A stretch of 64,000 nt of DNA from Dyella sp. S184 (GTDB taxonomy: Bacteria > Pseudomonadota > Gammaproteobacteria > Xanthomonadales > Rhodanobacteraceae): contig NZ_LMUE01000009.1 in assembly GCF_009766065.1 (NCBI RefSeq), positions 666,282 to 730,281 on the forward strand, read 5' to 3'. Below are positions 40,438-49,998 of this stretch, piece by piece (positions within the stretch are counted from its first letter, which is position 1; each line of letters opens with the position of its first letter). The notes below the pieces were generated by a model that did not search any database, was not told the origin of the DNA, and worked only from the letters and a program-made list of their open reading frames with translations. The translations under genes and the position numbers were made by a program.

Positions 40438-40768
40438 CAGGCCCCCCTGTATTCGATGCCGGTGAACTAAATTGTGTGGAATACGGTGTTCGTTCCTGCG
40501 TACAAGCCATGTGCTGCAGCTGAAGACTGCGGCGACATGCATAGATTCTATGGGTTATGCGGCAGGATTTGTGCGAAAAATTTCGCGCGCCGTACCGAAC
40601 GCCACCTGTAGCTGCCGACGTACCCGAGAAATTCGTCCCCGCAACGTGACCGCGCCAGACCGATGCGTGCGTCCCACCCGACGCGTTGGAGCATCCGAGC
40701 AAGGTTGGGAGATGAGCAAGGTGCACGATTGCCAGCGTTTGCGACGAAGTCTGCACACGCGGCATCGG

Positions 40769-40774
40769 TATAAT
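40769..40774 (+). promoter_or_regulatory. Candidate -10 box of the PAS-repressor gene
   Basis: A perfect TATAAT in a GC-rich divergent region (40438-40843), 70 bp before the ATG at 40844. No consensus -35 box at proper spacing was found, so it may need an activator. The rest of the 406-bp region shows no gene. Confidence 0.4.
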
Positions 40775-40843
40775 TTCTGCCTGAGTCGATCTCCGACAAC
40801 CTCCATTCCCATCTGCACTCCCATCCCGTTGTTAAGGCACTGC

Positions 40844-42034
40844 ATGACTGACCCGAATGCCATCGATCCCTTTCCTTTTCTGGGCGGCGGTTCCAGGACT
40901 GGTGCGTTGATTCGGGCCTTCGACTGGCAGAAAACCTCACTGGGAGCGCTAAGCCAGTGGCCTGAATGTCTGCGCACGGTTACTGCACTGATCCTGCGCT
41001 CCGATGCGCCGATGACCCTCCAATGGGGGGCTGAGGGTTGGTTCCTCTACAACGATGCCTACATCGAACTCGCCGGTGCTCGTCATCCCGGTTTGCTGGG
41101 CCAGACAGTTCGCGATAGCTGGTCGGAGATAGCGGACTTCAGGGCAGATGCAGTGAGTCATGTACTTGAGGGGAATACGCTCAATTACCGTGACGAGCAT
41201 TTTGTGCTGCTACGCGATGGCGAGCCAGAGGATATTTGGCTCGACATCAACTACAGCCCTGTCGTCGATGGAACCGGGACCCCTGTCGGCGTAGTGGCGG
41301 TTGTCAAAAATACCACCGCGCGAGTTCAAGCCGAACAGCGACTTCGTTTTGCCCAGGAAGCTGGTGGCGTGGGTACGTTTGAGTGGTATCCGGACTCCGG
41401 TCGCCTCGAGGCTTCCGAGCAATATAAACGCGTGTGGGGACTGGGCGCCGATGCAGTCGTCACCGATAAACTGTTGCTCAGCCTGGTGCACCCCGATGAC
41501 CGGCACATGGTGATACCTCAACGCTCCGGCCTGCCCAATCCCATGGCTTATCTGGAGTTCCGGCGCGTCGATCCGGTAACGGGCGAAATCCGGTGGATCG
41601 CTCGGCGCGGCAAAGTGATCTCCCTCAGTGGAGCGGCACGGCGTTACGTCGGCATCGCCATGGACATTACCGACCAAAAAAGGTCCGCAGAAGCACTGGC
41701 TGAAAGCGATGCCCGGTGGCGCCAACTGGTTGAGCAAATGGATATCAAGGAAATTCGGCATCGCAACGTGCGTACGCTCGTAAGAAAGCTTGAGCGCGAT
41801 GCAAACCGCGGCGGAAAACAGGCTGGAGGTTTGACCATGCTGGCCGAGATGCTAGGCAAGTCGGTTGCCCAGGTCAGCCGTTTCGCGGCTGAAAAACCCA
41901 CCACGCATATCGGCGATCGGATCGCTCGCGAAATCGAAGCGGTCTTCGAGAAGGAGCGCGGCTGGATGGATCATGTGCAGTGGAGCGCCAACATAGATGA
42001 CGCCGGGTCCAGCCATACCATCCCATCTGCCTGA
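40844..42034 (+). CDS. PAS-PAS sensor fused to phage-repressor-like DNA-binding domain
   Basis: A 396-aa protein; ATG 40844 follows AAGG. Residues about 20-165 form the PAS domain usually found at the front of hybrid histidine kinases (TGALIRAFDWQKTSLGALSQWP). Residues about 168-290 are a second PAS ending in DITDQKRSAEAL. Residues 299-396 start with their own Met. They carry a helix-turn-helix module (GGLTMLAEMLGKSVAQVSRF...HIGDRIAREIEAVF.KERGWMD) as in the N-termini of Cro/C1-type phage repressors. No kinase or GGDEF domain follows. A one-component, signal-sensing transcription factor is likely. Confidence 0.75.
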   Translation: MTDPNAIDPFPFLGGGSRTGALIRAFDWQKTSLGALSQWPECLRTVTALILRSDAPMTLQWGAEGWFLYNDAYIELAGARHPGLLGQTVRDSWSEIADFRADAVSHVLEGNTLNYRDEHFVLLRDGEPEDIWLDINYSPVVDGTGTPVGVVAVVKNTTARVQAEQRLRFAQEAGGVGTFEWYPDSGRLEASEQYKRVWGLGADAVVTDKLLLSLVHPDDRHMVIPQRSGLPNPMAYLEFRRVDPVTGEIRWIARRGKVISLSGAARRYVGIAMDITDQKRSAEALAESDARWRQLVEQMDIKEIRHRNVRTLVRKLERDANRGGKQAGGLTMLAEMLGKSVAQVSRFAAEKPTTHIGDRIAREIEAVFEKERGWMDHVQWSANIDDAGSSHTIPSA

Positions 42035-45068: not shown

Positions 45069-45806
45069 ATGCCCGAGCTCTCCACACCAGCCAGCCCATT
45101 GCATATCGCGGTATTGGAAGACGACACGGAGCTGCGCGAGGCGATCCTGTTACCTGGTTTGCGTGATTACGGTTTCACGGTCAGCGGCGCCGGCACCTCC
45201 GCTGAACTGTATCGCCTGATGCTCAGCCAACGCTTCGATATCGTCACCCTGGATATCGGGCTGCCCGATGAGAGCGGCCTTACTGTGGCGCGTCATCTGC
45301 GCGAATTGTCCGCCAGGCTCGGCATCATCATGCTCACCGGCAATCAGGACAAACACGATCACCTGCATGCGCTTGGCGCAGGCGCAGATGCGTATCTGTC
45401 CAAACCCGTGGATATAGACGTACTAGCAGCCACATTGCACAGTCTGGCACGACGACTGGCAGAAAAATCGACGGGCTCGGTACAGCCACACGTGGCCAAC
45501 CAGCAAACGCCAAGGCATTGGCGACTGGAAACGGACGGCTGGTGCCTGGTGTCTCCCAACGCTGTCGTCCTGGCCCTTACCGCACCCGAACGCTGTCTAC
45601 TCAGTGTGCTGATCAGTGCCCAAGACGCACCAGTGTCGCGCGAAACCCTGATCGCAGCACTATCCGACAATGTGTATGACTTCGATCCGCATCGTCTCGA
45701 AATGCTGGTCTACCGATTGCGGCGCAAGGCCATCGATGCCGCAGCTGGCAATCTGCCGCTACTTACTTCACGCGGTGCAGGTTATCTGTTTGTCCGCGGT
45801 GAATAA
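45069..45806 (+). CDS. OmpR-type two-component response regulator
   Basis: A 245-aa regulator. The receiver domain has acidic residues D18/D19, phosphoacceptor D62 in IVTLDIGLPDESG, the Thr in MLTGN and the Lys in LSKPVD. The C-terminal winged helix (ALTAPERCLLSVLI...RLEMLVYRLRRKA) binds DNA. It is convergent with the histidine kinase gene 45 bp away, which is the obvious partner. The target genes are unknown. Confidence 0.92.
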   Translation: MPELSTPASPLHIAVLEDDTELREAILLPGLRDYGFTVSGAGTSAELYRLMLSQRFDIVTLDIGLPDESGLTVARHLRELSARLGIIMLTGNQDKHDHLHALGAGADAYLSKPVDIDVLAATLHSLARRLAEKSTGSVQPHVANQQTPRHWRLETDGWCLVSPNAVVLALTAPERCLLSVLISAQDAPVSRETLIAALSDNVYDFDPHRLEMLVYRLRRKAIDAAAGNLPLLTSRGAGYLFVRGE

Positions 45807-45851
45807 CCTGCGCGGCATGGGTGTGCAAGACCTGGATGTCCGAGCCCGCGG

Positions 45852-47225
45852 TCAGGCCGAAAGCAGCGGCAACCGGATTTGAAAGGTCGTACCTTGGCCC
45901 GGCGAACTCATCACTGAGATACTGCCGCCCGCAGTCTTCAGCATGTCCTGCACCACGGCAAGGCCAAGTCCTGTGCCTTGCCCCGATGGCTTGGTGGTGT
46001 AGAACGGTTCGAATACATGTTTTTGCACCGACTCCGGCATACCGTCACCGCTATCTGCCAGCGTCACTTCCAGTTCCCCCGCGCCAAATGCCGGCTGCGC
46101 GCTGACTTTGAAATGGCCCCCTTCGGGCATCGCATCACGCGCATTCGCGGCGATGTTGAGCATCATCAATTCGAACTGCCCACGATCCAGGCAAACCGGC
46201 AAGCGGATCTGGTCGATATCCATCTGGAATCTGGTATTGGAGTCGAACAACTGTCGGAGCATCGGCTGCATCTCGCGCAGCACCTGCCCGGCATCGAATA
46301 CTTCCGGGTGCGCCACATCCTGCCGACTGAAATTGAGCAGTTTGCGGCTGATCGCCAACGCGCGCCGGGACGCCAATTCAACCCCTTCCAGCGCGCCCAG
46401 CAGTGCAGGCGCACCCTGATCGGCCAATCGTTCGCGGCGCATCGCGTAACCAAGCACCACGTTCAGCACGTTGTTGAAATCGTGAGCAATGCCGCTGGCG
46501 ATGCGCCCGACTGCCTCCATCTTCTGGGCATGGATGAGCTGATCCTGTACGCGCTCACGCTCGACCATCTCGTGTTCGAGCAGCACATTGGCCTGCACCA
46601 ACTGACGCGCATGCTCCTTGGATTCAGCGAGCGTCTCGCGCAAGGCAGCCACGGTGCGATCAAGCAATACGGTGGTCACCAGATAGCCCAGCGACTTGTT
46701 AGTCAGCAGCAAAAGTGTATCGGACGTCCTCGCCTGACGCGTGGCGGCGTACAGGATGTCAGTCAACGCGCCGCATGCGTTGACCATGACCAAGGCCAAA
46801 AAAACGGCCCAGAGCATCCGACGCCCCAAGACCAACCCGGCCAGGCCGATCATCAGCAGTGGATACAAGTCGTCATATGAAAGTCGCGTTATGCCGAACG
46901 CGGCGTACGTAAGCGCCAATGAAATCAGCGAAACCCAGATGTAGGCACTGACCGCAAGCCGAAATCGCCCATGGCGGATCCAGTAAAGGCTAAAGGCAAT
47001 ACAGGCCAGCACGAACACGTCAGTCGACAGGTCCACGACAATCGCAAACAGGGGTATCTGCTTGTAAAGCCCCTGATTCAGGTACACCCATGGGGTATTC
47101 ACCAGCAACTCGCCACCAATGCAGATCAGCAGCAACTGCACGACCGGCGCATTGCGCCGATCCAGCGCATCATCGATGGGCACCCGTTGCAGCCACTCGG
47201 CCACCGAACGCAAGGACAGTCTCAC
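45852..47225 (-). CDS. Membrane sensor histidine kinase
   Basis: A 457-aa kinase starting with GTG. The first 190 residues contain about six membrane helices (VQLLLICIGGELLV ... AVFLALVMVNACGALT) with no large extracellular loop, so it senses in or at the membrane. A coiled-coil leads to the HisKA domain, with the phosphorylated His in GIASGIAHDFNN (near residue 245). The HATPase has N (NIAANARDAM), DSGDGMP, and GTGLGLAVVQ. It probably phosphorylates the convergent response regulator. Confidence 0.92.
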   Translation of the reverse strand: MRLSLRSVAEWLQRVPIDDALDRRNAPVVQLLLICIGGELLVNTPWVYLNQGLYKQIPLFAIVVDLSTDVFVLACIAFSLYWIRHGRFRLAVSAYIWVSLISLALTYAAFGITRLSYDDLYPLLMIGLAGLVLGRRMLWAVFLALVMVNACGALTDILYAATRQARTSDTLLLLTNKSLGYLVTTVLLDRTVAALRETLAESKEHARQLVQANVLLEHEMVERERVQDQLIHAQKMEAVGRIASGIAHDFNNVLNVVLGYAMRRERLADQGAPALLGALEGVELASRRALAISRKLLNFSRQDVAHPEVFDAGQVLREMQPMLRQLFDSNTRFQMDIDQIRLPVCLDRGQFELMMLNIAANARDAMPEGGHFKVSAQPAFGAGELEVTLADSGDGMPESVQKHVFEPFYTTKPSGQGTGLGLAVVQDMLKTAGGSISVMSSPGQGTTFQIRLPLLSA

Positions 47226-47667
47226 AAGGTCGACACTCCGAAAGCCCTGAGTCTTGCCGATTTGTACGCCGCCATGGCGCGCGTGAGCAAGCGTTAGTTT
47301 CCGTTAGCAAGCGTGCGTGACACATGGGACCGACGTGCTCAATGCTGCCCATCGGTTGTCGCGATACGGAAATCGATTCGCGGGCAGCACCGACGGGAGG
47401 GGCGCCGGAGTCCACGCAGCCATCGGCAACTATCCCAAGGTACTGGTCGACCACTTCGGTACTCGGGCTGGTGGCCAGGATTGGGCAGCACGAGTGGGGC
47501 CATGCCGACGATTCTCAAAATAAATCCGGATCCCGCTCGACGCCAGGAGAGTCCGTTGCCGCACGGAATGGGCAGGGGCCATGTTCGGCACACGCTTGAC
47601 GCTTGCAAGCAGCTATCGGCCGATGTCGCCATCAATTTTTGACCAACTTATTCAATGGGGTTTCATC
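47226..47667. other. Intergenic region between the kinase and the S53 peptidase
   Basis: 442 bp between divergent genes, expected to hold both promoters. A short imperfect repeat of GCAAGCGTTAG/GTTAGCAAGCG occurs near 47286-47313. No gene or terminator was recognised. Confidence 0.35.
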
Positions 47668-49998
47668 ATGAAACAAAGGCATCTCATTCTTAGTGCGTCC
47701 ATCGCTGCGGCGCTGGCCGTCACACCCGGCATTCTGCTTGCCACTTCCGAAAACGCAGCACTTTCCGGCATCAACACTACCGAAGCGCCGAGGGTTACCC
47801 AAGCCGTCAACAGCAGCCACCTGTTCACCATTCCGAAGACGCATCTGGACTTCGTAGGCAAGGGCAAGACGACATCGAGCGTTGCGCTGGCCGGCACAAC
47901 CACCATGAAGCACCTGCAGTTGGTACTCAAGCCCAGTGCTGCGCGTCAGACGGCAATGGAGTCGCTGATTGCCAACCAGCACAACCCCAAGTCTGCCCAG
48001 TTCCAGAAATGGCTGACGCCGGAGCAGTTCGGCAAACAGTTCGGCGTGGTGGATGACGACATCGCGGCTGTGACATCGTGGCTTGCCTCCCAAGGCTTCA
48101 CCATCAACAACGTATACCCAAACAAGACGCAGATCGATTTCAGTGGTACCGCGGCACAAGTGAATCAGGCGTTCCATATACAAGAAGCTGTCTACACAAT
48201 CGGCACGGAAAAGCATCTGGCGAACGCCAGCGACATCAGTGTTCCAGCTGCACTGCAATTGGTGGTGGCGGGCGTGATGGGCTTGAATGACTTTCACCCG
48301 ACAGCGTTGGTGAAAAAGCCCGAGATTGCCCAGTGGAATGCGGGGAAGAAGGGCTTCGTGTCCGAGTCCAAGCCGGCCTCGGGTTCGAAAGTGATCAGTC
48401 AGGCCCTTAACTTCAATAGCACCGAGCGTGGTCTGGTACCCAATGATCTGGCAACGATGTATGGCATCAGGACCATCCGGGCCAACGGTGTAACCGGCAA
48501 GGGAATTACCATTGCCGTGGTCGAAGACAATGACATGGTGCCAAGCGATTGGACCAACTTCACAAGCACCTTCAATCTTGCTCAATACGGCGGCACGTTC
48601 CAGCAAATCAATCCGGCCCCGACATCCGGCACGAGCAATTGCGTAGATCCAAGCACGAATTTTCTTGGTGAACCCAATGACGACGGAGAGACCTTGCTGG
48701 ATGCCGAATGGGCTACCGCGATCGCCCCTGGGGCAAACATCGTTGTCGCCAGCTGCGCTGATGACGGCCCCAACTACTATCCCCTCACCAGCAACATCTT
48801 CGGCGGCGTCTTCATCGCGGCAACCAACCTGATCAATGGCACCAGCCGCCCGGACATCATCAGCGCCAGCTACGGGTTGGGCGAACTCTTCACGGATAGC
48901 GCCAGCAAAACGGCGATCGACCTGATGTGGGCTCAGGCTGACGCAGAGGGTATTTCAGTATTTGTATCAACCGGCGACTCCGGCTCCAATCCGAGTTTCA
49001 ACGGGAACATCATCCAAACCCAGGGCGTCGACGCCAATGCGCTCGGTACGTCACCGCATGACACGGGTGTGGGCGGTACTGATACAGCGGATATTCTCGA
49101 TGGCACGACCAGCCAGTATTTTGCCCCTACACCAAGTGTTGTTGGCGGTTCGGCGCTGTCTTATGTACCAGAGATTCCATGGAATGAATCCTGCGCCAAC
49201 GGTGTTGCCGCAACGGCTTTCGGCTTCACGAGTGCCCTTTCCTTCTGCCAGGAATATCTGAAATTGGATCCTGATGGCTGGAATGTCACCTCCGAAGCAG
49301 GTAGCGGAGGCCCGTCCTCGACAGATGCCAAACCGGTATGGCAGCAGCAGGTATTCAACGCTGCAAAGGATCATTCACGCGATCTCCCCGACGTAGCGCT
49401 GTTTGCCGCGTCCTATGGCGGATACACTTGGGTGATAACTTGCACGAATGCCAACCCCTGCACTCCGGGGTTCACTACTCCGATGGCATTGAGCGGTGGC
49501 ACTTCGCTGGCTTCGCCGATGTTCGCCGGCATCCAGGCACTCATCGATCAGGGGCTGGCCGCACGCGGATTGTCACAGGATCAGGGCAATGCAGCACCGA
49601 CGCTGTATGCGCTGGCGGCTGACGAATACGGCGGCGCTACCGGTCCGACGCCCGCCAGCCTGGCCGTGTGCAATGCGAACAATGGTGCTACTGGCACGGC
49701 CAATTGCGTGTTCCACAATGTCACTCGAGGATCGATTTCGACCCAGTGCATCGAGATTTTTGGCGAAACTACTCCTGATTGCTATTTCTACGGGCAGAGC
49801 AATAGCTATCTGGCATTACTTGGAGTTGCGCAACTGGGCATGACCACCAGTAATGCTTCACCAACCTCATATGGGGTAAGTAACAAAGCCTACGGTGCCC
49901 AACCGGGCTGGAGCTTCGCCTCGGGCCTGGGTTCGGTGAATGCCACGAACTTGTTGATCGCGTGGCGAGCCTTCGACCATGCGCCGCCTGCTCCTTGA
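47668..49998 (+). CDS. Secreted S53 family serine peptidase (sedolisin/pro-kumamolisin)
   Basis: A 776-aa preproenzyme. Signal peptide residues 1-26. The activation prodomain (about 50-200, LKPSAARQTAMESL...TPEQFGKQFG) is of the pro-kumamolisin type. The catalytic domain has the Glu/Asp pair in GETLLDAEWATAIAPGA, the oxyanion Asp in VFVSTGDSG and the nucleophile in SGGTSLASPMFAG. The C-terminal calcium-site region is present but short. Sedolisins are acid-active secreted peptidases. In this order they serve nutrient gain or competition. Confidence 0.93.
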   Translation: MKQRHLILSASIAAALAVTPGILLATSENAALSGINTTEAPRVTQAVNSSHLFTIPKTHLDFVGKGKTTSSVALAGTTTMKHLQLVLKPSAARQTAMESLIANQHNPKSAQFQKWLTPEQFGKQFGVVDDDIAAVTSWLASQGFTINNVYPNKTQIDFSGTAAQVNQAFHIQEAVYTIGTEKHLANASDISVPAALQLVVAGVMGLNDFHPTALVKKPEIAQWNAGKKGFVSESKPASGSKVISQALNFNSTERGLVPNDLATMYGIRTIRANGVTGKGITIAVVEDNDMVPSDWTNFTSTFNLAQYGGTFQQINPAPTSGTSNCVDPSTNFLGEPNDDGETLLDAEWATAIAPGANIVVASCADDGPNYYPLTSNIFGGVFIAATNLINGTSRPDIISASYGLGELFTDSASKTAIDLMWAQADAEGISVFVSTGDSGSNPSFNGNIIQTQGVDANALGTSPHDTGVGGTDTADILDGTTSQYFAPTPSVVGGSALSYVPEIPWNESCANGVAATAFGFTSALSFCQEYLKLDPDGWNVTSEAGSGGPSSTDAKPVWQQQVFNAAKDHSRDLPDVALFAASYGGYTWVITCTNANPCTPGFTTPMALSGGTSLASPMFAGIQALIDQGLAARGLSQDQGNAAPTLYALAADEYGGATGPTPASLAVCNANNGATGTANCVFHNVTRGSISTQCIEIFGETTPDCYFYGQSNSYLALLGVAQLGMTTSNASPTSYGVSNKAYGAQPGWSFASGLGSVNATNLLIAWRAFDHAPPAP

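Follow-up and report, generated by a model that had tools for sequence, protein, structure and literature searches.

A kinase-type PAS pair joined in frame to a phage CI DNA-binding domain, a likely one-component regulator of Rhodanobacter

A gene in the window, the 64,000-nucleotide stretch of DNA analysed here, encodes a protein in which a pair of kinase-type PAS domains is joined in frame to the DNA-binding domain of a phage CI repressor. The protein is probably a one-component regulator whose target is likely a host promoter. Sensor and DNA-binding domain lie in one polypeptide, as one-component regulators have them, and the assignment to that class, already made in the first-pass annotation, is therefore likely to hold. 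When the domain order was searched for in other genomes, it was found to recur: seven full-length copies occur in six Rhodanobacter species, with 55-76% pairwise identity and the same junction.

The features of the gene and the operators used for comparison are listed in Table 1. A longer frame beginning with TTG at 40472 is also present, and likeness to the relatives sets in only from the ATG at 40844 on. The first PAS region was recognized by two Pfam models, PAS (residues 56-154, 1e-7) and PAS_4 (68-161, 1.5e-7), while neither a HisKA/HATPase core nor an S24 peptidase domain was detected by Pfam in the protein. The C-terminal module of 98 residues begins with Met299 (nucleotide 41738). Over its residues 1-92 it matched phrog_12107, annotated as 'transcriptional repressor', in PHROGs (3.9e-9), and it shared 32-40% identity with CI proteins of Pseudomonas, Hafnia and Escherichia phages (E down to 2e-8). 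The Pfam HTH_3 match was sub-threshold, with 15.7 bits against a gathering score of 23 (E 0.016), so the module was assigned by PHROGs, by direct homology and by fold instead. An AlphaFold2 model of the module had a mean pLDDT of 79.5, with a core near 90. Its closest fold was the repressor of phage SPC32H (PDB 5d50), with a VIA-align Z of 10.8 over 75 residues and an rmsd of 2.3 Å, above the next VIA-align rows near 7-8; Foldseek gave this pair an E of only 0.02. The fold comparison thus groups the module with phage repressors despite the sub-threshold HTH_3 match, and the three lines of evidence bear out the earlier proposal of a module from a Cro/C1-like repressor, of CI origin. The full-length AlphaFold2 model of the fusion protein was of poor quality.

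Table 1 Features of the fusion gene and palindromes of CI promoters used for comparison
Feature	Location	Strand	Basis
Fusion gene, PAS-PAS-CI DNA-binding domain, 396 aa	40844..42034	+	Intact ORF (start ATG 40844, stop 42032-42034); full length kept in six species
First PAS domain, kinase type, residues 56-161	41009..41326	+	Pfam PAS and PAS_4
Second PAS domain, PAS_3, residues 188-272	41405..41659	+	Pfam PAS_3 1.6e-10; PDB 3mr0 relative
Helical linker, residues 276-298, present in the kinases too	41669..41737	+	AlphaFold2 models; alignment
CI-type DNA-binding domain, residues 299-381, beginning at the ancestral CI Met	41738..41986	+	PHROGs; CI alignment; fold match to PDB 5d50 (Z 10.8)
Presumed recognition helix, residues 341-347, VAQVSRF	41864..41884	+	Helix 67-73 of the module model; DNA contact inferred
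Variable C-terminal tail in place of the CI linker and S24 domain	41987..42031	+	Alignment
CI-promoter palindrome TTTACC-N5-GGTAAA and variants	L048 (6757-6851), L049, L050		
CI-promoter palindromes of phages: TTAACC-N5-GGTTAA; TGTACC-N5-GGTACT; TTTAGC-N5-GCTAAA	Turba; yong2; PotUPM1		

Both parent types of the fusion exist as separate genes in other genomes. Residues 1-299 showed 56-62% identity to the N-terminus of Rhodanobacter PAS-array histidine kinases, which run on into more PAS domains, HisKA and HATPase; the kinase type that had been suggested for the first PAS domain is confirmed by this match. In a tree of the PAS pair, all seven fusions lay on one side of a single branch (support 98/95), beside these kinases. 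The module shared 43-52% identity with the N-terminal 85-95 residues of prophage CI repressors in related genera (L048, L049 and L050). All of these have an S24 domain, though a weak one in L050, and a small, divergently oriented cro-like gene. The fusions grouped together in the module tree as well, with weak support (72/84). In an alignment with 13 phage-type repressors, the start Met of the CIs fell on Met299. The kinases also carry a Met in this column (FEEM-QEG), and the exact joint may therefore sit a few residues either way. No remnant of an S24 domain or of a kinase core was found in the 1.6 kb downstream of the gene in any copy, and a search of viral contigs with the A3 patterns returned no relatives. 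The homologies and the absence of remnants establish, at the level of sequence, a kinase origin of the PAS part and a CI origin of the module, and an S24-type CI is supported as the donor. Domestication of a prophage repressor by gene fusion, as first proposed, is likewise supported, though the genome of the window shows neither a prophage donor nor a second CI of this type. The simplest reading is one old kinase-CI fusion event inside the genus: the sensor array at the N-terminus of a PAS-array histidine kinase from Rhodanobacter was truncated where its third PAS domain begins and fused in frame with the beginning of a phage CI gene, which retained nothing but its DNA-binding domain.

The genus search covered 45 genomes, and copies were identified in G017, G013, G025 (two), G044 and G023 besides the window. 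The alignment of the copies spans the whole length, and the common junction reads EQ-M/L-D/N-I/V-K. No fusion was found elsewhere in the samples of the order, class and phylum, and a scan of about 85,000 species genomes with two search patterns returned fusions only from Rhodanobacter. Among the class and phylum matches to the CI-like HTH, nearly all lay at the start of short repressor proteins, an exception being L130, a 477-aa frame in which the HTH begins at residue 257; in these samples no match followed a recognized PAS domain. The domain order is genus-restricted and patchy (6 of the 45 species) but conserved. Furthermore, PAS1, PAS2 and the module are all under purifying selection, with pN/pS of 0.14-0.54 and heavily changed synonymous sites. 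Regarding the locations of the copies, the G017 fusion has a phage-type integrase gene 0.7 kb away (L042:5454-6710), and other copies appear, by sequence reading only, near transposase-like genes (L044, L046). Such genes may be the reason for the scattered locations.

The presumed recognition helix is the best-conserved stretch of the module among the fusions. S340, Q343, S345, R346 and F347 are invariant there, whereas the closest CIs carry Q, Q, N or T, H and F at these positions. A helix conserved within the fusions yet unlike that of the CIs suggests DNA binding with altered specificity. The CI promoters of this class contain palindromes in which 5 bases separate two arms of 6 bases each, the arms varying by phage; L099-L101 are among the CI promoters having this layout. 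No CI-type operator (N6-N5-N6) was present upstream of the fusion gene in any of the seven copies. The stretch 40438-40843, where binding had been anticipated, thus holds no operator of this type, although an unrecognized site may lie there. The pattern ACC-N5-GGT was absent from the fusion promoters, their shared dyads were no better than those of the best shuffles, and a scan for sigma-70-like promoters returned nothing. TTTACC-N5-GGTAAA had zero matches in the genome of the window with up to one mismatch allowed, and in other genomes its matches were mostly not above the reversed control. No cro-like neighbour accompanies the fusion genes. The fusion no longer has the feedback arrangement of CI.

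PAS domains dimerise and relay signals via flanking helices, dimers of XRE-type domains bind palindromes, and the S24 domain of CI provides dimerisation and damage sensing. Among solved regulators, MltR (PMC3406030) and PpsR (PMC3949515) combine PAS and HTH. In the fusion, the PAS pair is most likely a ligand-responsive dimer in both roles of S24. It would probably replace the lost S24 domain in dimerisation and sensing, the signal would pass via the connecting helix to the DNA-binding domain, and the latter would bind a palindromic site as a dimer. We infer that this site probably belongs to a host promoter rather than to an old prophage operator. Of the signals proposed at first, a redox state is unlikely to be sensed through thiols: the copies share no invariant Cys, and those of G044 and G023 contain no Cys at all.

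A role of the module without DNA binding, in protein interaction or dimerisation, might agree with the absence of a recognizable operator. The fusion could, for example, modulate related PAS-array kinases via shared PAS domains, and G023 has both the fusion and a related kinase. We regard this as unlikely, as no part of the module is more conserved than the presumed recognition helix and most fusion genomes are without a close kinase relative. Quite unlikely as well is a signal-gated immunity, in which the hybrid would silence incoming temperate phages with a related CI and act on foreign DNA instead of host genes. The CI origin of the module, the patchy presence in 6 of 45 species and a host genome without prophage-type operators or a second CI of this type all fit such a function; however, the recognition helix differs from that of the closest CIs at the likely DNA-touching positions, and the searches turned up no phage of Rhodanobacter that carries a matching CI. 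A host-encoded phage repressor gated by the kinase-type sensor, in which a metabolite decides whether incoming phages, or a regulon with phage-type operators, are silenced, is improbable.

The suggestion that the module is also made alone from the internal ATG at 41738, giving a full protein and a free module, draws on Met299, which aligns with the CI start and is present in six of the seven copies. The G025b copy, however, has CTG at this position, a Shine-Dalgarno-like sequence is missing in every copy, and the kinases have Met in the same column. Two products are hence very improbable, and Met299 is accounted for by the former CI start or by the Met in the kinase's third PAS domain. Although the parents exist separately in other genomes, a functionless chance joining or an assembly error, the latter raised in the first-pass annotation for the case of separate genes in all relatives, has practically no likelihood: the domain order is kept in seven copies of six species with one shared junction, which rules out an artefact, and both halves are under purifying selection.

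Returning to the reading as a regulator of host promoters, the neighbours of the fusion gene vary between species, with synteny only between G000 and G013, and the context therefore points to no regulon. An OmpR-type response regulator and a histidine kinase (window 45069-47225) lie 3 kb from the fusion, and their homologues stand beside the G025a fusion (L044:9699-12292). A homologue of the OmpR-type regulator was present in five of the six fusion genomes and in three of the 39 others (Fisher p 2.6e-4, a value that ignores relatedness). A protein with a pro-kumamolisin activation domain is encoded near the fusion of the window (47581-49995), and a relative with 34% identity directly beside the G025a fusion (L044:4060-7335). 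In G023, a few bases separate the fusion gene from a CsbD-like gene behind it (L047:8552-8878).

Compared with known systems, the fusion resembles S24-type phage CIs (L048, L049, L050 and Rep of phage SPC32H, PDB 5d50) in its DNA-binding domain, which has the same fold and an aligned start Met. However, the HTH domain of these CIs is N-terminal and followed by S24, whereas that of the fusion is C-terminal after PAS-PAS, without S24, and the fusion has neither the divergent cro gene nor the operator array. Over the first 299 residues it is like the PAS-array kinases of Rhodanobacter and Rhizobiales (up to 62% identity), which continue into a third PAS domain, HisKA and HATPase; the fusion has none of these, and its output is a DNA-binding domain. 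The MltR/MmyB family (PDB 3pxp), mostly of actinomycetes, also combines an XRE-type domain and a PAS-like ligand domain in one protein (PMC3406030). There the XRE-type domain comes first and is followed by one PAS-like domain; the order is thus reversed relative to the fusion, and the PAS and HTH lineages are others. PpsR/CrtJ, a palindrome-binding repressor of photosynthesis genes, shares with the fusion a PAS array followed by a C-terminal HTH (PMC3949515), but has three PAS domains, a Q-linker and its own HTH instead of two PAS domains and a CI-type HTH. FddR of Francisella is a phage S24 repressor that its host has recruited as a regulator (PMC13148647); it keeps S24 and autoregulates, whereas in the fusion the sensor part has been replaced through gene fusion. 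No report of a kinase sensor array with a C-terminal phage CI domain was found in an incomplete selection of the open-access literature. Elsewhere, a 466-aa frame (L118, G1191) carries a CI-like HTH upstream of, and in frame with, a DAHP synthase (Pfam DAHP_synth_1, 8.8e-96), possibly a second, independent fusion of this HTH kind or two genes without an intervening stop. A gammaproteobacterial protein (L057:4710-5345) apparently contains two tandem repressor-type HTH stretches, the second of them CI-like.

Neither half of the fusion is new, regulators joining PAS and HTH and a co-opted phage S24 repressor being already known, and FddR, MltR and PpsR limit the surprise. The fusion is nevertheless a traceable case of a new bacterial regulator, in which a DNA-binding domain from a phage took the place of a kinase output and the two types of parent can still be recognized. 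With the junction, the type of donor and the class of the former operators known, experiments can address how the domain became functional at the opposite end of a protein and how its specificity shifted.
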